From positions 1 to 39,227 of IMG/VR virus record IMGVR_UViG_3300042541_001181: 39,227 nt of DNA. One strand, 5' to 3'. Origin of the DNA: a virus. Positions 283-39,227 of the stretch are shown piece after piece. Below the pieces are notes generated by a model. That model did not search any database and was not told the origin of the DNA. It saw only the letters and a list, made by a program, of their open reading frames with translations. How positions within the stretch are numbered: position 1 is the stretch's first letter; the number at the start of each line of letters is the position of its first letter. Made by a program: the position numbers and the translations under genes.

Positions 283-519
283 ATGAAAACATTTATCGCA
301 CTATTACTAATCTCAACCTCAGCCCTTGCTTGTGACGATTACATGGAGCAACAAACTAATATCATGCAACAACAACTGTTCTCGCAACAGCGTCAGGCTC
401 AGGAACAAAGGCAAGCTGACTATACGGCTAATCTTAATGCTCAGGAACAAATGCGTCAGGAACGGTACAATACTTTCTCAACTAATATGATATTGTTAGA
501 TGGGCAGGATCGCCAATAA
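283..519 (+). CDS. Small secreted glutamine-rich protein (possible lysogenic-conversion gene)
   Basis: The 78-residue product begins with a clear signal peptide: MKT, a hydrophobic stretch (FIALLLISTSALA) and an AxA-type cleavage site before Cys17. A lipobox is not well matched, because Leu is at -2. The mature part is very rich in Gln, Arg and Glu (QQQLFSQQRQAQEQRQ), hydrophilic and probably helical. An AGGA ribosome-binding site lies 7 bases before the ATG. The gene stands alone on the plus strand between the att region and the convergent end of the late operon. That is the usual place for a moron expressed in the lysogen, perhaps acting in the periplasm or envelope. No family is recognised; function unknown. 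Confidence 0.75.
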   Translation: MKTFIALLLISTSALACDDYMEQQTNIMQQQLFSQQRQAQEQRQADYTANLNAQEQMRQERYNTFSTNMILLDGQDRQ

Positions 520-520
520 T

Positions 521-549
521 AAAAAACGGGAGTTATTTCGGTAACTCCC
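521..549 (-). terminator. Intrinsic terminator of the late operon
   Basis: Perfect 8-bp stem GGGAGTTA/TAACTCCC (528-535 and 542-549) with a 6-base loop. On the minus strand it is followed by C then six T-equivalents (521-526). It lies 13 bases beyond the stop of the last late gene. It also lies just past the convergent plus-strand gene at 283-519, but the plus-strand side lacks a T tract. Confidence 0.85.
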
Positions 550-561
550 TATTAGCGCAAA

Positions 562-2058
562 CTATTGTTGACTGCTTTCTTGATTCATTTGTTTGAGCAA
601 TAAGGAGCCTAGTAAGCCACTGGCCAACAAACTTGAGCTATTCTTTCGGAGTGGATCAAATGCTGCGAAACGGGAGCGTATTTTACTGGTATCATTTGTG
701 ACATCCCAGTTTTCTCCACTTCCTTGGTGCATTGTATGACCTTTATAACCTAGCTCCTTTACTCCATCCCATCCTGTATTTACCATTAATGAAAACGCTT
801 CATGAGGGGTGTTTATTGGTATATCTGAATTGTAATTTATAAAATCCACAATAGGCGTTCCATTTTCCATTGATGCAGTAGGTTTTGCTCTGTCATAGCC
901 ATCTGCGAAATGCTCCCAATCTTTCTGCCTCTGCGAAAAGAATTCTCTCGCATCTTCAAGGCTCTTAAATTCTTTTCTTTCTTGGCCTATCATCTTATAA
1001 GCTCTTTCACTTGGAAGCATAGAATTGCTTGCATATTTTCCAAGTAGATTTTTGTCGCTTTCCTTAAGTGCAGGCAAATTTAAAAAATCTTCTTTATCAA
1101 TTTTTAATGGAATAATTCCTGCTCCTGGTGGTTCTTGACGATAATTACTATATGTTGATGCTGTATGTGGTCTATTACTTGAATAAATACCTTCTCCATA
1201 AGCTGCACCATTTGACCTATTAGCGTGCATCCCTCCTATTTTTAACTCACCTCCTATTTGGTTCAAGACGGGTGTTCCATGAAACGAATCATACAAATAT
1301 TTAGACCTGCTCTCAGGACTTCCACCCTGTGCATTAGCATTATCTAAGTTATATCTTTGCAACTGTGGCGTTTCCATCTTTGCACCATTAGCTTCATATA
1401 AAGCCATTTCTTCTGGCGTCAATCCTTTTCCTGATAAGTGTTTGTTCAATAGCTCAAAATTGAGATTAGGGTTTATTTTTTCTCCATCAAAAACATTAGC
1501 TGAAATACTTTTTTCATTATTTAAATTAGCAAGAGAAGCTCTATGATGACCATCAGTTAAATAATACTTACCGTTCATCATAACTGCATTAACTGGGTCT
1601 TCAATATTATTAACGCCTTTAAGATTATTTAATGTAATGTTTTTTTGAGTAGGAACAATATCGGAAATATTGATCTGTTGAGGCTGATTAGTGCCAGAGA
1701 AATAATTGTCCGCTTTCAGTCTCGTATCTAATGGTATTTCTCCTAAACTATTGTTAAATACGTTCCCAGTTGGGATTTTTGGAACTGTTGATTTATTACT
1801 CGCCTCCAGTTCTTTTATTATTTTATTCATGGCTGGATTACTAAGCGAGCTTAACCCCATTGGCGCATTTAAAGCCGCAGCCGTACCCCAATCACGCATA
1901 GCTTCGGGCGATTTAAAGTCGGCATTGCTGGGAATTAATTGACCTACACCTTTTTGCAGTACGCTGGCAAAACTATCCATCCTTGGATTATTATTAAACA
2001 ACTGACCGTAATCTTGTCCGGCAGACTTTAGGTTATTGACGATCTCTTCAAGTGTCAT
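562..2058 (-). CDS. ParB-like plus PARP-like ADP-ribosyltransferase protein, probably virion-carried
   Basis: The 498-residue product is the last gene of the late operon, two bases after the transglycosylase gene. Residues about 115-190 look like a ParB/sulfiredoxin-fold domain, with the typical DGHHRAS at 169-175. Residues about 255-465 resemble an ADP-ribosyltransferase of the PARP-like group: HGT at 260-262, YGEGIYSSNRPHTASTYS at 287-304 (compare the PARP pattern GxGIYFA...S..Y), and a C-terminal KIRSRFAAFDP stretch often seen at the end of phage-associated ART domains. A hydrophobic tail (SSLLASGLLGSLLL, about 475-488) ends the protein. Fusion of such domains is known from polyvalent proteins of phages and conjugative elements. 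Position after the ejection genes suggests delivery with the DNA, as for T4 Alt. This is inference: the third catalytic Glu is not assigned with certainty. Confidence 0.7.
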   Translation of the reverse strand: MTLEEIVNNLKSAGQDYGQLFNNNPRMDSFASVLQKGVGQLIPSNADFKSPEAMRDWGTAAALNAPMGLSSLSNPAMNKIIKELEASNKSTVPKIPTGNVFNNSLGEIPLDTRLKADNYFSGTNQPQQINISDIVPTQKNITLNNLKGVNNIEDPVNAVMMNGKYYLTDGHHRASLANLNNEKSISANVFDGEKINPNLNFELLNKHLSGKGLTPEEMALYEANGAKMETPQLQRYNLDNANAQGGSPESRSKYLYDSFHGTPVLNQIGGELKIGGMHANRSNGAAYGEGIYSSNRPHTASTYSNYRQEPPGAGIIPLKIDKEDFLNLPALKESDKNLLGKYASNSMLPSERAYKMIGQERKEFKSLEDAREFFSQRQKDWEHFADGYDRAKPTASMENGTPIVDFINYNSDIPINTPHEAFSLMVNTGWDGVKELGYKGHTMHQGSGENWDVTNDTSKIRSRFAAFDPLRKNSSSLLASGLLGSLLLKQMNQESSQQ

Positions 2059-2059
2059 A

Positions 2060-4153
2060 TTAGTTGCCTTGATAGCCGATAGAAGTATCCAGTAATAACT
2101 TAATTAAGTTATCAGCCTGTTTTCCACTCCATCCTGATATACCTTGCCTTTCATTAGGCAATCTCATCAGTTGCGCTGCTTTTTTAGGATTTAACATAGC
2201 ATCAGCAAGTGACTGTCTTAGTGATAGTTCAGCCGGAGCATTAGCAAACTGACTAACTGCTTTTGCACCTGGTATTTTGCTCAATAAATTACCAGCTATT
2301 CCAAATCCACCAGTGGAATCAACCATATCATTAAATATCAAGTTTTGTGCTGTATTGCTATTAGGGCCACGTCCGAGAGTATCGGCTTTTCTTACCCTAG
2401 CCATATCATTAGTGATTCGATCAAGCAGCTTTAGTTGTGGCTTTGTCATCGTATTAGCAAGGGTTGCATTTTTCCTACCTGTAGCCGCTACCGCTGTTTT
2501 ATCACCTGACTTAATAGCTCTTGCTAACTGCGTGACTGTTTCCATGCTGTCATTGCCGCCATAATTACTAAGTGCTGGCTTGGCCTTGTCGTATAAGTAA
2601 CTTCCTATTTCAGCCCTATTGACACGCCCAGAAGCGTCCTTGTATGCCTTTTGTGCCACCGCATAATCAGGAGCAACAGCTTCCCTCCATGTCTCAAATG
2701 CGTTTCTTGTTCCTTTCATCGCTGCGCCCTCTACAGCAGAAAGAGGGTTCTTGGGATCAGAGATCATAGAATCTAAGCCTAACTTCAAATGGTGTAAGTT
2801 ATCGCCACTTATATCAGGCAATAAATTACCAGCATCATCATAAAGATTAGGGAGTGTTTTACCATTTTCTGCCGCTATTGCTTGTGCCTTGTTCCAAGAT
2901 GCTTTCATAGATGGGCGCTTCATTAGCCCTGCAAAGGTATCATCAAGTGGTATTGTTCCTAATTTTGCTAGGTCATACAGTGGCCCTGTTTTTAACGCTC
3001 GTTTATTGGCTAATAGTCCAGCATCAGGCGCTAATGCACTTAATGAGTAATCTCTAGCGGCTGCGTTCTGCGCTCTTCTAAATGCGTAGGCTTCAGGATT
3101 AGCCGCTTCTGCTGATCGTTGTAGTGCCGCTAAACCACCGCTATCTGCAACTTCTGCAACCGTTGGCATAGAACCTTTTACCAAATTATTGTTACCTTCA
3201 AGCCTTGCTAATAGATCATCTAAATTTACACTGCCTGGACTTGCCCCATCACCTTTATTGATTGCATTACGCAATATTCTGCCCATGACAATATCACGGC
3301 CTTTTTCTGTGTAAGGTTGCGTTACTTTTCCAAGTACGCCTAAAAGATTACTTGCATATTTGCCAGCCACCCCTAATGCGCCACCTTCTGCCCCTGCTGT
3401 TAATCTATTTTTTAAGCCGCCTTCTGTCGTTAATGCTGAATAGGCCGCACCTGTTCCAGCTAATGCAGGATAAGTCATAGGTGATAATATAAGTGGCAAT
3501 CCAGATGCAACTGACCCAACAAGCTCACCAGCCATAGACGCGCCTGTAGGTGGCGCTTTTCGGTCAATTTCTGATGTATCCCCAAGAAAATCATTACCGA
3601 ATAACTGAGTTATAGCATTGGCGGCATGTGCCATAGGCTTACCAATTCCCTCAACAAACGTCATTGGAGGTAGCTGTCCAACTGCTGGTTGCGTAGGTGT
3701 TTCTATGCCCAAAACTTTAAGCTGATCTGGGGTTAATTCTTTAAGTGATTTAACTTGTGGCATCCAGCTACCTTCTTTTGATATAGGTTTTCCAGAAGAA
3801 ACTGAGCTTGGCCCGTCATGATAGGCAGAATATGCTCTATCTTTACCAAACCTATCCTGCTGTTGTTTATAGTATCTTGCGCCTCCGCTTATATTAATTT
3901 CAGGATTAAATCGTTGGTCAGGATTGATTCCTGAATCAACAGCGGCTGCATGACTTAACTGCATAACTCCTTGTGGCCCAGTAGGAGAAACTGCATTTGG
4001 ATTAAGGCTTGATTCATGGATAGCTACTTGTTTAATTACTCTTGGATCAAGCCCAGTATCATTAGAGGCAGACTGTATTGCATTATCTATTCTGGTATGG
4101 GGTTGTAAGCCCAACTTAACTATTTCCTCATTAGTTAATTCTTTAAGCGCCAT
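2060..4153 (-). CDS. Ejection/internal virion protein with N-terminal lytic transglycosylase domain
   Basis: The 697-residue product has an SLT-type (GH23-like) domain at residues about 20-115. The motif HESSLNPNAVSPTGPQGVMQ carries the expected catalytic Glu47, and ARYY and AYHDG follow near 93-113. Such domains let internal virion proteins open the peptidoglycan during DNA entry. Residues 205-265 are small-residue-rich and hydrophobic, perhaps membrane-inserting; the rest is alpha-helical and low in recognisable motifs. The N-terminal LKELTNEEIVKLGL is echoed at 137-150 (LKELTPDQLKVLGI), so a short segment flanks the enzyme domain on both sides. The gene lies between another ejection-type gene and the ADP-ribosyltransferase gene. 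Confidence 0.85.
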   Translation of the reverse strand: MALKELTNEEIVKLGLQPHTRIDNAIQSASNDTGLDPRVIKQVAIHESSLNPNAVSPTGPQGVMQLSHAAAVDSGINPDQRFNPEINISGGARYYKQQQDRFGKDRAYSAYHDGPSSVSSGKPISKEGSWMPQVKSLKELTPDQLKVLGIETPTQPAVGQLPPMTFVEGIGKPMAHAANAITQLFGNDFLGDTSEIDRKAPPTGASMAGELVGSVASGLPLILSPMTYPALAGTGAAYSALTTEGGLKNRLTAGAEGGALGVAGKYASNLLGVLGKVTQPYTEKGRDIVMGRILRNAINKGDGASPGSVNLDDLLARLEGNNNLVKGSMPTVAEVADSGGLAALQRSAEAANPEAYAFRRAQNAAARDYSLSALAPDAGLLANKRALKTGPLYDLAKLGTIPLDDTFAGLMKRPSMKASWNKAQAIAAENGKTLPNLYDDAGNLLPDISGDNLHHLKLGLDSMISDPKNPLSAVEGAAMKGTRNAFETWREAVAPDYAVAQKAYKDASGRVNRAEIGSYLYDKAKPALSNYGGNDSMETVTQLARAIKSGDKTAVAATGRKNATLANTMTKPQLKLLDRITNDMARVRKADTLGRGPNSNTAQNLIFNDMVDSTGGFGIAGNLLSKIPGAKAVSQFANAPAELSLRQSLADAMLNPKKAAQLMRLPNERQGISGWSGKQADNLIKLLLDTSIGYQGN

Positions 4154-4155
4154 AG

Positions 4156-5427
4156 CTATTGCTCCACATAATATTTTCCATCTTCACCAATATGGATAGA
4201 TAGGCCGTCTTTTATAATGGTATGAATAATTTTAGGTTGTATTGTTTTTGACGTGCCAGCCGGAGCTTGTGAACCAGCTATGCCTTCAGCCACTCTTCTT
4301 CTTTCTGCCTTACGCATAACTTCTTCTTTGCTATCGCCAGGCTCAGGCCAGTATATTCTTAACTTTGTGCTATATTCACTAGGCGCAATAGATGCACCTG
4401 ACTCATCACGCAAGTTTTTCTCAGCCCATGTTTTCTTGATGTTGTTATAAGCCTTTTGTCCATCGGGTATTAAACTAGAGCCAACTGTTGATATAAGTGG
4501 GTTATCTGAACCTTGAATAGCCTCACCTAGCTTTGCTTTAACAATAGTTGAGCTTGTAATGGGTGCAGATGGATCAAAACCAGTGCCAATAAGTTCATCA
4601 TATTGCTTGTTTATCTCATTTGAAAGCCTTGAGTTTCCTAATGATTTTACTTGTTCAGCGGTAGGATTTTGAGTCTTTGTTTCTCCTGTAAAGTTATTTG
4701 TTTCGGTTTTTATTCCTGATGTAGTATCTATAGTATTAGTAATTTTTTCAGGTGCTGTCTTTACAACATCTACCTTACCATGACTGTTTATTTGAACGAT
4801 TGACTTTGGGGGGAAGGCTCCACCGAGTCCTTCATCATCTTGTCCACTGCCAACGATAATAGGTTTGTCATAGGAAGTCTGATCTAGGAAGGCACGATAT
4901 GGATCGCCTACAGGGACTACTTCATTATTTGGCCCAAAGATATTTTGCTGCCTCATTAATGGATCGCCTTTAACTCCACCAGTCCAAGGTTGAGCCTGTG
5001 TTCTTGGCTTGTTTTGTTCAGCCATCATAGATAAGCCATGTATAGCCATACTAGGGTCAGGATTAGCCGCTAATCTAGCTGCAAATTCTCTATCAGGCAT
5101 ATCGCCTCTTAGATACCCAGTACCCGGCAAGCCATTCGCTAATACTGGATCAGCACTATCAACACCCATTACTGGACGAGTACCGATCAACTGCCTCATC
5201 TGCTCAGTCGCATCAGCTTGCTGTTTCTCTTTCCTGCGTCCGGCTGAGATAGCCGCTAACTCGCTGAGGCTAGGCATTTCTGGCTTAGCAACTTGAGCTA
5301 CCGGCTGTTGATTAGAGTTCATAAGGAAACTTAACATCTGCCCGAGTCCAGCACTGCTATTGTCCTGTGCAACTGGTCGCGGCTGAACGATATTGCCACT
5401 CAGCATCTCTGCTATTGAAAATCCCAT
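4156..5427 (-). CDS. Probable internal virion/DNA ejection protein
   Basis: The 423-residue product is polar and Gln/Pro/Ser-rich in the N-terminal half, probably disordered. The C-terminal third has the pattern RDESGASIAPSEY followed by WPEPGDSKEEVMRKAERR. An ESGA-I...E....P.PGDS...V..KA..R arrangement is familiar from long internal virion proteins of podovirus-like phages. The start codon overlaps the stop of the preceding gene by one base (TAATG), indicating coupled translation. It lies next to the transglycosylase gene, and three adjacent genes look like one ejection set. Function is inferred from context and the C-terminal motif. Confidence 0.6.
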   Translation of the reverse strand: MGFSIAEMLSGNIVQPRPVAQDNSSAGLGQMLSFLMNSNQQPVAQVAKPEMPSLSELAAISAGRRKEKQQADATEQMRQLIGTRPVMGVDSADPVLANGLPGTGYLRGDMPDREFAARLAANPDPSMAIHGLSMMAEQNKPRTQAQPWTGGVKGDPLMRQQNIFGPNNEVVPVGDPYRAFLDQTSYDKPIIVGSGQDDEGLGGAFPPKSIVQINSHGKVDVVKTAPEKITNTIDTTSGIKTETNNFTGETKTQNPTAEQVKSLGNSRLSNEINKQYDELIGTGFDPSAPITSSTIVKAKLGEAIQGSDNPLISTVGSSLIPDGQKAYNNIKKTWAEKNLRDESGASIAPSEYSTKLRIYWPEPGDSKEEVMRKAERRRVAEGIAGSQAPAGTSKTIQPKIIHTIIKDGLSIHIGEDGKYYVEQ

Positions 5428-5945
5428 TAGCCACCTCCAGAAAGCATTCTAAGTAAAGTATCCCATGTTGCATTTGGATGAACTGCACCAGGCATTTTAG
5501 GCATTTGAAATACGCCAGCAGCACTCATTGGTTGTCTTTGTGGTTGCTGTTGATTTTGACCTTGCATAACCTGTTGCATCATCTGCCCATACATGGGGTC
5601 ATTAGGTTGTCCTGCAACCAAGCCAGCAGAAGTATCTTGTGGGGTAGCCCACTTCTCCCATTTCTTACCACCGCCACCACTACCCATGCTAGGAGGCGCA
5701 GAGCCAGCCCCTATTGTCGATGACATCATTGGATTGGTAGACGTTGGTGATCCAGTGAGGGCTTGGTTTAAGGAGTTTTGTGGTAATTTTGCGCCAGGCA
5801 CAGGCCCCGACATTGCGCTATTAGCACCACCCATTTTACTGCTGCCCTTACTTAATAAATCCATTAATCCACCGCCACTTGCTCCAGCCGATCCTGCTCC
5901 ACTCTTAAATAATCCAGACAACATTGGTATTAATTGTTCCCACAT
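5427..5945 (-). CDS. Small Gly/Met/Gln-rich virion-associated protein
   Basis: The 172-residue product starts with an amphipathic helix (MWEQLIPMLSGLFKSG) followed by low-complexity Gly/Ser/Pro and Met/Gln-rich sequence (GQMMQQVMQGQNQQQPQRQP). It has no enzyme motif. It sits in the ejection cluster and its stop overlaps the next start (TAATG). Low-complexity proteins with a short amphipathic start are common in the equivalent place in podovirus genomes and are thought to be injected or internal. The family is not recognised. Confidence 0.55.
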   Translation of the reverse strand: MWEQLIPMLSGLFKSGAGSAGASGGGLMDLLSKGSSKMGGANSAMSGPVPGAKLPQNSLNQALTGSPTSTNPMMSSTIGAGSAPPSMGSGGGGKKWEKWATPQDTSAGLVAGQPNDPMYGQMMQQVMQGQNQQQPQRQPMSAAGVFQMPKMPGAVHPNATWDTLLRMLSGGG

Positions 5946-5948
5946 AAC

Positions 5949-6404
5949 TTACACCTTGTATTGCGTTGAGCCATCAGCACCGTACCATTCTTCGCCAGCG
6001 CTAGAAGGTAGAGTGCCATTGATGTATTTTTGAACTGAATAAAAGGTAGCGCCAGCTTTACCAAAAACACCACCATGCCATGAGGTAGGTAGTATCCTGA
6101 TAGGCATCATTGAACCTTCCATCTCTGAGCTATAAAACTGACCATTATTTTCAAAGACTACATCGCCAGAATTGAAAACCTCATAACTATCCATATTCGG
6201 ATGAACATGCAGTTTTATTTCAGTATTAGGCGGCACATGAATCAACTGAACTTGATAGACATCACTTCGATAGACATTAAAAAGTGTGACTGTTTTTCCT
6301 AGATCATCTTTATAGGTATAAATTGGATCATCAAGGGGTATATTTAGCGGTCTACCATTACTGAACCACCAATTCAGAAAGCTAGTTAAGTCATCGTAGA
6401 TCAT
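5949..6404 (-). CDS. Cupin-like protein in the ejection gene set
   Basis: The 151-residue product has a single cupin-type beta-barrel signature. VPPNTEIKLHVHPNMDSYEVFNSGDVVFENNG (residues about 58-89) matches cupin motif 1 with HxH metal ligands and the downstream Glu, and ILPTSWHGGVF (about 104-114) matches motif 2 with the third His. Cupins bind small ligands or metals and many are enzymes, but the substrate cannot be told here. The start overlaps the stop of the preceding gene (ATGA). A metal-binding cupin inside a late structural operon is unusual. It could be a virion component or an enzyme acting on the cell envelope or host metabolites. Confidence 0.65.
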   Translation of the reverse strand: MIYDDLTSFLNWWFSNGRPLNIPLDDPIYTYKDDLGKTVTLFNVYRSDVYQVQLIHVPPNTEIKLHVHPNMDSYEVFNSGDVVFENNGQFYSSEMEGSMMPIRILPTSWHGGVFGKAGATFYSVQKYINGTLPSSAGEEWYGADGSTQYKV

Positions 6405-10645: not shown

Positions 10646-11266
10646 TTATCCTGCAAAAGTGGTTAGTGAAGTGCCTGACCAAGTGGACTTAGCATCGTTT
10701 AAAGTTATCTCTGACATTGCTTGTTGAAAGCGTCCATCCCAAAGCTGTGAGGCTTCAGCGTCTTTAACAAAGCTGTTAATCTCAACCAACAAACCAAACA
10801 CATAAGCATCTGGATTAGACTCAGACAGCCAGTTAGTTGTTAAGTCAGTAGACAGTGGAGGCAAAGTTCTAAAATAATCTATCTCTAATGAATGGTCAGA
10901 GTCATAAAAAGGTTGCACATGAATATTTCCAGAAATAACCGTATAACAAGGAAACTGTGTCTCACCGTTATTAACTAGGTTAGCCATCTGCTCAGGATTA
11001 ACTTGTAGCAAGGTCACTCGACTTGTTGAGTTAGTATTGTCAATGACCTTGATAGATCGCATAACAGAATAGTCTGTTGGTAACGGATAATACTCAAGCG
11101 TTGAACTCATTGCAGTCTTAGCCCGACTAGACATATCTAACGTCATTAATGTGCGGTTAATTCTTGCTTCTGTAACACGCAAAAAATTATCCATACGAGA
11201 AGTTACTTCTGAATCTTGCCGATCAGCGTAGCCAAGCGTTAAGTTTATAATGTCGTTATAGTTCAT
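10646..11266 (-). CDS. Head-tail adaptor protein (P22 gp4-like group)
   Basis: The 206-residue product has the usual adaptor pattern: an N-terminal NYNDIINLTLGYADRQD, then FLRVTEARINRTLMTLDMSSRA, then YYPLPTDYSVMRSIKV, and later LEIDYFRTLPPLS. Proteins of this pattern are called phage adaptors and form the ring under the portal. The ATG at 11266 overlaps the upstream stop (ATGA), so I prefer it over the start at 11278. It is followed five bases later by the fibre gene. Confidence 0.75.
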   Translation of the reverse strand: MNYNDIINLTLGYADRQDSEVTSRMDNFLRVTEARINRTLMTLDMSSRAKTAMSSTLEYYPLPTDYSVMRSIKVIDNTNSTSRVTLLQVNPEQMANLVNNGETQFPCYTVISGNIHVQPFYDSDHSLEIDYFRTLPPLSTDLTTNWLSESNPDAYVFGLLVEINSFVKDAEASQLWDGRFQQAMSEITLNDAKSTWSGTSLTTFAG

Positions 11267-11772
11267 TCTATTTCCCAAATAATAGGCGGCACATATTCAA
11301 ACTGCCAAGTTCCCAAATACAGACCAATATCTGCATTAACACCAGTTACAGAGTAAGTTCCATAGTTAGATGAAATCAATGTGTTATGTTGCATTATTGA
11401 TGTCTGTCCAGCATACGAATACACACCATTTTCAGCCAATATAACTTTGTGTAAAAATGCTTCAGCTGATTGTCCTGTGTAGGCATAAGTACCATTAGAT
11501 GCAACAATTAAACTATTTTTATTGTTTAGCGCATCAACACCAACATAACTATATGTGCCATAGTTTGTTGTTAATATTGTGCTACCTGTCTTATCTGCTG
11601 ATTGCCCTGAGTAGGTATATGTACCATTATTGGCAACTAATATGGTGCTACCTATCTTATCTGCTGACTGCCCTGTATAGGTATAAGAACCAGTTAAAGA
11701 ATAATTTAAGCCTTTTATTTCAGCAGGAGAAACGCAAAATGCTGATTCAGCAAATGATGAAAATCCAAACAT
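11263..11772 (-). CDS. Structural protein with five to six ~26-residue Tyr/Gly repeats
   Basis: The 169-residue product begins with MFGFSSFAESAFCV, an opening found in many phage virion proteins. It continues with tandem units of about 26 residues of the form NGTYTYSGQSADKTGSTILT. Units start near residues 28, 54, 80, 106 and 131 and diverge increasingly towards the C terminus. Each has a G-x-Y-x-Y-x-G core, suggesting a beta-solenoid or stacked hairpins. At DNA level the two most similar units lie at about 11580-11700. Role: probably an outer virion or fibre-associated protein. The start of the adaptor gene overlaps its stop. Confidence 0.65.
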   Translation of the reverse strand: MFGFSSFAESAFCVSPAEIKGLNYSLTGSYTYTGQSADKIGSTILVANNGTYTYSGQSADKTGSTILTTNYGTYSYVGVDALNNKNSLIVASNGTYAYTGQSAEAFLHKVILAENGVYSYAGQTSIMQHNTLISSNYGTYSVTGVNADIGLYLGTWQFEYVPPIIWEIE

Positions 11773-28308: not shown

Positions 28309-28864
28309 ATGCTGCTTGTTCTACTTGTTCTAACTCAAATGGATTAAAATTAATCCTCAATTCCTCACCTAATGCTTTAAATAAAATTGCTGTTGGTACG
28401 CCAACCGACATGGTTGTATAGCCTATGTTTGAAGCTGGTATTTTTGGATATTTATTAATCCATTGTTCACCGTATTTTTGCCATGCCGCTTGAAGCTGTA
28501 TGACTGGAAGCATGTAACATCTGCCTAATGGCGCTATTAAATAAGCTATATAGTCAGCTCTTAAAGGCTTACATACCCACCCAGGCTTGCTCTGTTCTTT
28601 TGACGATAAATATTCAAGCGCAATATCATCGTAAACAAGACCAGTTTTTTTGTTTCTTCCTCTTACTTTTTCATCAATAAAAACTTGCTTGGTATTGCTT
28701 AAAACGATACCTCTATCAATCCCTTCTCTTTGCCAAAAACCATCGGACTTGTATGAGATTTTCTCTATCATTGTCGGAAATGATTTTTTATAAATTTCAT
28801 CCCAGATAGGGTTTTCCTCAAATAAATGTGAAAATTCAAGATCAGCTTTAAAATCATTAACCAT
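28307..28864 (-). CDS. Possible PD-(D/E)XK nuclease paired with the methyltransferase
   Basis: The 185-residue product is taken from the ATG at 28864, which overlaps the methyltransferase stop and is preceded by GGGGGA. It contains REGIDRGIVLSNTKQVFIDEKVRG, where Asp50 and the Asp64-Glu65-Lys66 cluster have the spacing of a PD-(D/E)XK active site. The rest (YIAYLIAPLGRCYMLPVIQLQAAWQKYGEQW) is hydrophobic and aromatic. Frequently such proteins are unannotated phage nucleases. Being coded just after an MT-A70 methyltransferase it may form a modification/cleavage pair, but activity is not shown. Confidence 0.55.
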   Translation of the reverse strand: MVNDFKADLEFSHLFEENPIWDEIYKKSFPTMIEKISYKSDGFWQREGIDRGIVLSNTKQVFIDEKVRGRNKKTGLVYDDIALEYLSSKEQSKPGWVCKPLRADYIAYLIAPLGRCYMLPVIQLQAAWQKYGEQWINKYPKIPASNIGYTTMSVGVPTAILFKALGEELRINFNPFELEQVEQAA

Positions 28865-30059
28865 TAGATTGATTCCCCCATACAGACCAACCATCACGAG
28901 GAGTTCTGCAAAAAAGTTCGAGTTTTTTATACTCCGGATACATATCTTCAATAATTGAATAAAATTCTTCTGGCTTGCTGCTATGCTCTCCACGCTTGTA
29001 ACTTAAAACTGATTTCACTCTAGCGGCTGGGATGGGTACTGGAATATTTCCTTTCTTGGCAACCAGCAATAATTCATGCTGCTGTCTAAAGTAGTAACCC
29101 ATGCCTATTTTTTCTTTATCCCAAACAGCGCACGTTACATAGCTAAACCCCCAAGCATTAATAACTCTCAATGCTTCCTCTAGTTTTGGCGAGGTTGCCC
29201 ACATAAACAGAACACTGTCATCTGTGGCTATTTCGCTTATATCCATATTACAAATATCATCAAGTTCCATTGTTGGATAATGGTTTTCAATAGCTCTTGA
29301 TTCAGTTTCTACATGCTCATAGCGCCAAGGCGGATCGGCATAAATAACGGGGAACTTGCCAATACCCTCTAAGGTTTGATTGCCTTGGCTAATCTCTACA
29401 ATCTTATTAACTCTCTCAACCCTTGCTTCTACTTTTTTAATATCTTTGTAGGCTTGGTTAATACTTACCTCGCCCGTTAAAACCTGTTCTTTAATTTCTG
29501 GCGTGGCGTCCTTCCAAACCTTGTCAGCCATTGCCACTTTGCCGGTACTCCAGCCTAGTTCGGAGGCTATGGTGTCGCGTGTGTTGTGTTTTGTTTTGTC
29601 AACTACTGACAAAACAAAATCAGTCATAAAATTAAAGTCACACTCAGTGCAGTTCTCGTCAGCCGCCCAGCAATAATGCTCACATTCAGGACATTCTTTG
29701 CCGTGATACTCTGGCTTTCTTACCTGTGCAATTTTGCCAGCCTCTAGCAATATCTCTTTCTTTGACTGCGTTAGTTGATACTTCCAGCCGTCTGTTAAGT
29801 TTCTGCGCCCGTTTTGGTTGTCAATCATCCATAACTTAGCCTCGCCACTATCAGCAAAGTCTTTCTCTAAAATACTGAATGGCAAATCATGCTTGGTGCA
29901 TATCTCATAGCGGTTATGCCCGTCTACTAATGTATTATTGAAAACCACCAAAGGTTCTCTGCACCCGTCAGCAATGATATTTTTCTCAAGCTGGCTGTAC
30001 TCCTCTAATGACAGTGGCGGTATCAGTGCTTTAAATTCAGTGCAGATTTCAATTTTCAT
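28857..30059 (-). CDS. ParB-like/MT-A70 adenine methyltransferase fusion
   Basis: The 400-residue product starts with a ParB-type domain (LSLEEYSQLEKNIIADGCREPLVVF, then DGHNR at 46-50). A Cys cluster (C123, C126, C130, C137, C140) looks like a zinc site. A helical linker leads to an MT-A70 methyltransferase with FPVIYADPPWRYEHV (DPPW at 242-245), LFMWATSPKLEEALRVINAWGF and WDKEKIGMGYYFRQQHELLLVAKKG. The DPPW motif indicates N6-adenine methylation of DNA. Uses: protection from host enzymes or regulation. The preceding small gene ends in TAATG overlapping its start. Confidence 0.87.
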   Translation of the reverse strand: MKIEICTEFKALIPPLSLEEYSQLEKNIIADGCREPLVVFNNTLVDGHNRYEICTKHDLPFSILEKDFADSGEAKLWMIDNQNGRRNLTDGWKYQLTQSKKEILLEAGKIAQVRKPEYHGKECPECEHYCWAADENCTECDFNFMTDFVLSVVDKTKHNTRDTIASELGWSTGKVAMADKVWKDATPEIKEQVLTGEVSINQAYKDIKKVEARVERVNKIVEISQGNQTLEGIGKFPVIYADPPWRYEHVETESRAIENHYPTMELDDICNMDISEIATDDSVLFMWATSPKLEEALRVINAWGFSYVTCAVWDKEKIGMGYYFRQQHELLLVAKKGNIPVPIPAARVKSVLSYKRGEHSSKPEEFYSIIEDMYPEYKKLELFCRTPRDGWSVWGNQSNG

Positions 30060-38078: not shown

Positions 38079-39097
38079 CGCTGTTTCGTGAAACCGTTAT
38101 CAATGAAATTGAGTCTGGTACATTTGATTATGCAAAAACATTTCCAGACTCAAAACACGCCACTAGATTTATTGAAAAAGTAGATAAGGTTTTATTGGTG
38201 TCTGATTGCCTAAATCGCTGGTTAGATGAAAAAGAAAAGCAGACTAAGGCCAGCAGTTACCAGACTTACAAAAAACGAGTCACAATGCTTCAAAAAGTAT
38301 TTGGCAACTATGCTGCTGAAGCAATAAGAAAAGTCGATGTCAAAGATTGGTGTAAAACACTGACTGTCTGCAATAAATCTATTCGTAGCTATACTCAGCC
38401 GCTAAGTTCTGCGATTCAGTTAGCCGTTGATGATGAATTGATTACGACAAACCCCTTAGCAGCATTTAAATACACCATTCTCGAAGAGCTAAAAGATGAT
38501 TTTGTTGATCCACTTGACAGATCGGAAGCAACAAAACTACTGGCGAGCCTTTCGGGATCGTATAAAAACTTGGTGCAGTTTGCCCTATGGACAGGATTGA
38601 GAACGAGTGAACTGATAGCCGTACAGTGGGGTGATGTTGATTTTAATCGTGGCGCTATTTTAATTAAACGGGCTAAAACACAAGCGTCTAAAAAAGACGA
38701 GGTAACAAAAACCAGAACTGGAAAACGGGAAGTAAAATTATTAAGCCCTGCTTTATCAGCATTATCAAGTCAAAAGGCTTTTACTTTTTTATCCGGTAAA
38801 CATATTTTTCTGAATGAAAAAACAGGAAAACCGTTCACTGGTGATACTCAAATAAGAAAAGCATGGAAACGGGCATTGTTGAGAGTTGGTATCCGCTACC
38901 GAAATCCTTACCAAACTAGACACACCTATGCGAGCTGGATGTTATCAGCCGGTGAACCTTTGGCTTGGATAAGTAAACAAATGGGTCACGCAAGCATCAC
39001 AACAACGACTAAACACTATGCAAGATTCTTGGATGACAGTCAGCCTGATGCAGGCAATAAAGCAGTAGATTTGTTCTCTGAAAAAAACATCCATTAA
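37949..39097 (+). CDS. int: Tyrosine-family integrase
   Basis: The 382-residue product has an N-terminal arm-binding domain of the DUF3596 type (GIRKATENSIQIEFTYQSKRCRERIKC, about 7-33) and a SAM-like core-binding domain (about 88-175). The catalytic domain has Arg218 (TGLRTSEL), Arg324 (PYQTRHTY), His347 (MGHASI) and Tyr357 (KHYARF). The first His of HxxR is replaced by Tyr (YQTR), as in other members of the group. The ATG at 37949 has GGTGGGA upstream. It overlaps xis. The 3' end runs into the att repeat, whose second copy lies at 1-21. Confidence 0.92.
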   Translation: MARDGTGIRKATENSIQIEFTYQSKRCRERIKCAPTDANFRKIALFRETVINEIESGTFDYAKTFPDSKHATRFIEKVDKVLLVSDCLNRWLDEKEKQTKASSYQTYKKRVTMLQKVFGNYAAEAIRKVDVKDWCKTLTVCNKSIRSYTQPLSSAIQLAVDDELITTNPLAAFKYTILEELKDDFVDPLDRSEATKLLASLSGSYKNLVQFALWTGLRTSELIAVQWGDVDFNRGAILIKRAKTQASKKDEVTKTRTGKREVKLLSPALSALSSQKAFTFLSGKHIFLNEKTGKPFTGDTQIRKAWKRALLRVGIRYRNPYQTRHTYASWMLSAGEPLAWISKQMGHASITTTTKHYARFLDDSQPDAGNKAVDLFSEKNIH

Positions 39098-39227
39098 AAC
39101 GTACATTAATCCAAAATAAAGGGGTTTTTATGTCCGTTTATAGCCTAATTAATGTACGTTTTAACGGTAGACAGCGGCACACATGACATCATGGGTAACT
39201 CTTAATTACCCTTCTGTCATTGATTTA
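39077..39227. repeat. Terminal direct repeat, right copy
   Basis: Same 151 bases as 1-151 apart from T at 39203 versus A at 127. It contains the last codons of integrase and two of the arm-like AAAACGTACAT sites (39096-39106 and the inverted 39152-39162). Confidence 0.95.

Follow-up and report, generated by a model that had tools for sequence, protein, structure and literature searches.

Organization of the putative effector gene

The DNA analysed here is a virus contig record of 39,227 bases, IMGVR_UViG_3300042541_001181, referred to as a whole as the window. The final gene of its late operon encodes a 498-residue protein, which a first-pass annotation had read as a fusion of a ParB-like domain with a PARP-like ADP-ribosyltransferase (ART). 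This reading was borne out by profile searches and a fold model, and the motifs picked out earlier are in place: DGHHRAS (residues 169-175), HGT (260-262), GEGIYSS (288-294) and KIRSRFAAFDP (459-469). The hydrophobic tail of the first reading was upheld in part: the protein is at its most hydrophobic from about residue 470 to 492, though weakly so (19-residue mean 0.8). What had been missed is that the gene starts with a leader shared with other phage genes, whose bodies are exchangeable. The parts of the gene are as follows.

562..2058, minus strand: putative effector gene, 498 residues, final gene of the late operon; ATG start, Shine-Dalgarno-like AAGG 8 nt upstream
1849..2058, minus strand: constant leader, residues 1-70, three helices predicted with low confidence; defined by DNA identity and a leader profile
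1480..1758, minus strand: ParB/sulfiredoxin (Srx)-like domain, residues 101-193, with the DGHHR motif at 169-173; PF23719, ParBc_2
1330..1479, minus strand: conserved helical linker, residues 194-243 (NLNFELLNKHLSGKGLTPEEMALYEANGAKMETPQLQRYNL); defined by DNA identity
688..1311, minus strand: ART domain, residues 250-457; profile, AlphaFold2 model and Foldseek
1279..1281, minus strand: H260, predicted NAD-binding histidine of strand 1 (strand 256-262)
1183..1185, minus strand: Y292, predicted strand-2 tyrosine (strand 290-294)
712..714, minus strand: E449, candidate catalytic glutamate at the start of the last long strand in the prediction (DSSP strand 449-454)
565..687, minus strand: C-terminal tail, residues 458-498 (IRSRFAAFDPLRKNSSSLLASGLLGSLL...), 78-84% identical in DNA to the tails of other ART genes that have the leader

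A constant leader followed by exchanged bodies

Over codons 1-70 the window and locus L003 are 92% identical in DNA, and beyond codon 70 there is no similarity. In this near-identical phage (L002/L003) the neighbouring SLT-transglycosylase gene is 99% identical and the leader is kept, while the body is wholly different and carries a HELQH motif. Whole-protein queries of annotated phages and viral contigs, and a query with the ART core alone, gave no matches. These empty searches at first suggested an orphan, a view resolved by the leader query: the leader alone found 19 loci in IMG/VR, then ten further matches, some of them on the same contigs.

With the leader profile, about 21 distinct bodies were recognized in the window and the related loci. 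Metallopeptidase-like (HExxH) bodies follow the leader in L003, L004, L008, L019, L026 and L030, a GNAT domain combined with an ART in L005, a metallopeptidase combined with an ART-like domain in L029, and ParB alone in L027/L028. Several of the ARTs behind the leader (L009, L012, L016 and others), which have no DNA similarity in the core, are mutually unrelated. In L004 an ART gene and a peptidase gene, each with the leader, stand in tandem in that order. In L018 the leader, an ART and the tail are part of a single protein with an SLT transglycosylase domain (SLT E-value 4.8e-20).

DNA similarity between the window gene and the other leader genes is confined to stretches within codons 1-70, 194-252 and 452-489 and, in the case of L028, to the ParB segment as well; none was found in the ART core. 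The conserved islands are placed at codons 1-70, 194-243 and 459-489, so that the linker island spans 50 codons and the tail island 30. The linker DNA is 73-86% identical to that of L005, L006, L004a, L009, L012 and L016, and its flanks differ. L012 and L014 are 99.6% identical over 241 nt and unrelated thereafter. For the tail motif, at least 431 viral stretches passed confirmation, and the best 80 were retained. In sequenced bacterial genomes the leader was not found, and the tail was found at three loci only. The literature searched, with partial coverage, gave no description of the leader.

We considered whether the leader swaps could be assembly chimeras. This is unlikely because the same combination of leader and body is seen on more than one contig (L006/L007; L009/L010 and, nearly identical in sequence, L017; L013/L014/L015; L027/L028).

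Two further bodies were noted. Three contigs carry an identical gene in which the leader precedes a body of about 300 residues (L013:862-2073, L014:4953-6164, L015:4953-6164); the body had no Pfam or PHROG match and is a candidate new effector domain. The gene at L006:4989-6116 has the leader, linker and tail, and a domain at the ART position (KWHETDINGF...TPYAVFVK). The HG[TS] motif is missing from this domain, which may be a divergent or a different enzyme.

Sequence evidence for the ART domain

Searched alone against Pfam, residues 241-498 gave nothing significant (PARP, E-value 0.21), and the family is therefore visible through relatives only. A profile was built from 20 other phage ARTs with the shared tail removed; since it ends ahead of the tail, the tail cannot drive the score. 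The window ART core scored 34.7 bits with this profile; 5,000 shuffled versions reached 10 bits at best. Its nearest relative is the ART of L099, with 28% identity over the core. Seventeen of 22 aligned ARTs match PF18760 (ART-PolyVal) with E-values of 0.01 or lower, the best being 2.9e-14; relatives with the same leader and tail reach 1.4e-6, still under the cut-off. Sequence searches of the PDB found no significant relative; weak lines to Cholix and diphtheria toxin fit an H-Y type ART and are not taken as evidence.

Predicted fold and catalytic residues

A fold prediction had been set beforehand as the check for an ART barrel, and when it was run the model agreed with one. The AlphaFold2 model of residues 240-470 (pLDDT 79.9, pTM 0.71) matched 20 viral models in BFVD by Foldseek with E-values of 0.001 or lower, headed by an ART-PolyVal of a Yersinia phage (1.6e-6). 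Several of the matched proteins are named ART-PolyVal, others ParB/Sulfiredoxin, N-acetyltransferase or LT_GEWL proteins. Among PDB structures the first match was chain B of the cyanophage A4 pre-ejectosome (E-value 0.018, probability 0.94), followed by PARP catalytic domains (E-values of 0.07 and up), each of these matches being weak and not significant by itself. Overall the model supports an ART fold. A Foldseek match of the full-length model was set aside because its root mean square deviation was about 20 Å.

In the alignment of 22 ARTs, whose rows were chosen partly by an HG-type motif, the His and Gly of HGT are invariant. From the alignment and the model, the catalytic set of the window protein is probably H260/Y292/E449, with D456 as the alternative acid. 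E449 is favoured over D456 because it opens the last long strand, is conserved in L099 (GE[NQ]WDV) and would occupy the place of the catalytic glutamate of PARPs. D452 is likewise conserved with L099. The strand-5 D of the polyvalent ARTs corresponds to the D456 column, in which relatives have D, N, E or Y, and L099 has N.

The ParB-like domain

The ParB-like region, searched alone, matched PF23719 with an E-value of 6.7e-7, above the cut-off, and ParBc_2 with 0.0018, below it. The G-x-x-R motif with the conserved arginine of the ParB/sulfiredoxin superfamily is present as DGHHR (169-173). The stand-alone protein of L027/L028, consisting of leader and ParB, is 80% identical to the window ParB. 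A large multidomain protein (L116:1958-4591) contains two ParB-like DGH[QH]R segments, the second of which is 46% identical to that of the window.

Elsewhere in the window, an early-region protein (28857-30059, minus strand) was read as having a ParB-like N-terminal part (LVDGHNRYEI) and an adenine-methyltransferase-like part (DPPW).

Late-operon position and probable delivery

The genes around the effector gene are listed here.

2060..4153, minus strand: ejection-type protein, 697 residues, SLT lytic transglycosylase domain (PF01464, E-value 6.4e-19)
4156..5427, minus strand: conserved gene, 423 residues, presumed ejection block; syntenic in related loci
5427..5945, minus strand: conserved gene, 172 residues, presumed ejection block; syntenic in related loci
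528..549, minus strand: hairpin 3′ of the effector gene, resembling an intrinsic terminator
283..519, plus strand: convergent gene, 78 residues, signal-peptide-like start; homologues at the same spot in most relatives

The start codon of the effector gene lies 1 base past the stop of the 697-residue SLT gene, whose product also matches the internal virion protein family phrog_342 (E-value 1.2e-14). The gene is placed as the first-pass annotation had it, last among the late genes, after the ejection genes and before a terminator-like hairpin. The terminator count did not exceed the shuffled expectation, and it is position alone that argues for the hairpin. At most of the context-informative loci (the window, L002, L006, L010, L012, L014, L016, L017 and others) the gene follows an ejection-type block, and at the same loci a small convergent gene lies beyond the effector gene.

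Chain B of the A4 pre-ejectosome (PDB 9k3a; Hou et al. 2025, as cited in PMC12810830) was identified by sequence as ORF27 of Anabaena phage A-4L. ORF27 has LYHGT...GSGTYFS at about residues 1424-1450; for this ART segment Pfam gave an E-value of 0.22 and hhalign one of 9e-4 with a probability of 23%, which is weak support. Just before it lies a segment that was read by eye as ParB-like (PIVI...VVDNHAIYEAAKLA) and had no Pfam support.

Injection of the effector is likely because the gene stands after the ejection genes, an ART is fused to an SLT domain in L018, and an ART-like segment occurs in the A4 pre-ejectosome. By its conservation, its position and analogy, the leader is most likely a packaging or ejection signal.

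An unpackaged protein would act instead in the producing cell, as a late intracellular effector or as a factor of lysogenic conversion or superinfection. The source phage is temperate and has an integrase, and the end of an operon is a common site for cargo genes, both of which suit such a role. We consider it quite unlikely, since the gene is coupled by one base to an SLT ejection-type gene, the L018 protein joins the leader and ART to an SLT domain, and promoter-like signals in the effector region did not exceed expectation.

A proposed injected effector

We think it probable that the protein is a compact polyvalent effector, made late, carried in the virion and entering the host with the DNA, with cargo that is exchanged among relatives. 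It would be produced together with the ejection proteins and packaged in the virion, residues 1-70 directing packaging or ejection, and would enter the host cell alongside the DNA. The cargo would consist of the ParB-like domain and an H-Y-[E] ART. In the first minutes of infection the ART may move ADP-ribose from NAD+ onto a host target, and this modification could favour takeover by the phage or blunt a defence; the ParB-like domain may act on nucleotides or DNA. Related phages would swap cargo by recombination in the conserved DNA islands of the leader, linker and tail. Of this proposal, the analysis shows the domain content, the exchange of cargo, the place in the late operon and a predicted ART-like fold; location in the virion, injection, enzymatic activity, target and the role of the leader are inferred.

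Several observations weigh against this proposal. The window ART has no match to PF18760 (ART-PolyVal/Tox-ART-HYD2), the fold matches in the PDB are weak (none with an E-value of 0.001 or lower, low TM scores), and the model of the full-length protein is of poor quality except at about residues 200-465. Four loci (L005, L027, L028 and L030) have the gene after one of tail type and not after the ejection block. The first-pass annotation had looked for a conserved His260/Tyr292/acidic residue set. The histidine fits in all 22 ARTs; the GEGIY position has Tyr in 14 and Phe in eight; and the third catalytic residue varies across relatives, E449 being a likelier acid than D456 in the window protein. 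With a variable third acid and Phe for Tyr in eight of 22, some members may be inactive.

The same variability would suit a structural ejection protein, in which the ejectosome would use the ART-like and ParB-like folds as building blocks devoid of catalysis, with variation that reflects drift and fitting to the host envelope; that an ART-like fold was resolved in the cyanophage A4 pre-ejectosome also agrees with such a role. We regard it as unlikely. A structural part would not readily tolerate the replacement of HExxH peptidase, GNAT, ART and ParB by one another behind one leader, the HG pair is invariant in all aligned ARTs, and in L028 ParB alone behind the leader suffices.

Comparison with known systems

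Polyvalent proteins have been predicted to be effectors that are injected; their most frequent protein-modifying domain is ART, with H, Y and a strand-5 D as the residues used (Iyer et al. 2017, PMC5512222). The window protein resembles those with ART-PolyVal (PF18760) in being a late-gene phage product that joins enzymatic domains unrelated to each other, among them an H-Y type ART, and its family shares their partner set of ParB/Srx, GNAT, metallopeptidase and lytic transglycosylase. It has at least two domains of unrelated activity, ParB-like and ART, and lies among late virion genes, 1 base after the SLT ejection-type gene, as is characteristic of polyvalent proteins. Unlike the proteins of Iyer et al., it is small (498 residues), and its exchangeable cargo is flanked by the constant leader and by linker and tail segments that are homologous; unlike ART-PolyVal, its ART escapes detection by Pfam, and the acid that it uses is probably E449.

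The layout is also reminiscent of the T4 internal proteins Ip1-Ip3, injected anti-restriction proteins that have only the packaging leader in common (PMC12373910). In both cases the N-terminal leader alone is common to the family members and the phage locus is variable. The T4 proteins, in contrast, are GmrSD inhibitors and not enzymes, and the likeness is one of layout, no relation in sequence being known between the leaders. T4 Alt shares the proposed role, that of an ART injected to act as infection begins. Membership of the Alt group was rejected: Alt belongs to the R-S-E clade and the window protein has H-Y motifs. A-4L ORF27 has a similar ART-like segment, with the segment read as ParB-like ahead of it, and was resolved in a podophage pre-ejectosome; it differs in its length (1717 residues), in lacking the leader and tail of the window protein and in its marginal match to the ART profile.

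ART domains also occur among the MuF polymorphic toxins of temperate phages (PMC5576092), which are likewise phage-borne proteins with a constant N-terminal region and exchangeable C-terminal enzymes, ART and metallopeptidase among them. Membership was rejected here too, as residues 1-110 had no Pfam match, hence no MuF domain, and no immunity ORF lies downstream. More generally, a polymorphic antibacterial toxin directed against competitors and accompanied by an immunity gene would have the observed layout of constant N-terminus and variable C-terminus, which polyvalent proteins are said not to follow (PMC5512222), and a small convergent gene does adjoin the effector gene. We nevertheless consider a toxin very improbable: there is no MuF or secretion domain and no small same-strand ORF downstream, the operon ending at the terminator-like hairpin, and the convergent gene stays conserved across changes of cargo, which would not be expected of a cognate immunity gene.

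A possible exchange site for injected effectors

A wider proposal, to which we give even chances, is that the locus is a site dedicated to the exchange of injected effectors. A new virion-packaging or ejection leader of about 70 residues, together with homologous linker and tail islands, would allow cargo (ART, GNAT, metallopeptidase, ParB or an unknown module) to be swapped by recombination from one podoviral ejection operon to another, in some cases as tandem genes, with the leader serving as a general tag for ejectosome loading. If this is true, the principle of the T4 internal proteins, one packaging leader with many cargoes, would extend to enzymatic effectors of small podovirus-type phages, and the leader would provide a candidate signal for ejectosome loading that is short and can be tested. 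Unknown modules behind the leader at this hotspot, such as that of L013-L015, would then be predicted early-infection effectors, and the hotspot would offer a practical route to new anti-defence enzymes.

Other features of the window

The source is an uncultured, temperate phage of podovirus type. A portal gene was recognized by homologues so called in annotated phages; the ORFs were read as including genes for terminase, coat and tail on the minus strand and, at the right end, one for a tyrosine integrase. The 78-residue convergent gene is kept in most leader-bearing loci, where the effector cargo differs, and possibly encodes an envelope or superinfection-exclusion protein. Positions 1-151 and 39077-39227 form a 151-bp direct repeat at the contig ends with 1 mismatch (position 127). 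It could reflect a genome that is circular or terminally redundant, a duplicated attachment site (att) or an assembly overlap. Inside the ejection block lies a cupin-like gene of 151 residues (5949-6404, minus strand) with no counterpart there in the near-identical L002. A protein encoded at 11263-11772 (minus strand) contains imperfect tandem repeats of the YTGQSAD type, which also show as a DNA repeat at 11572-11696.
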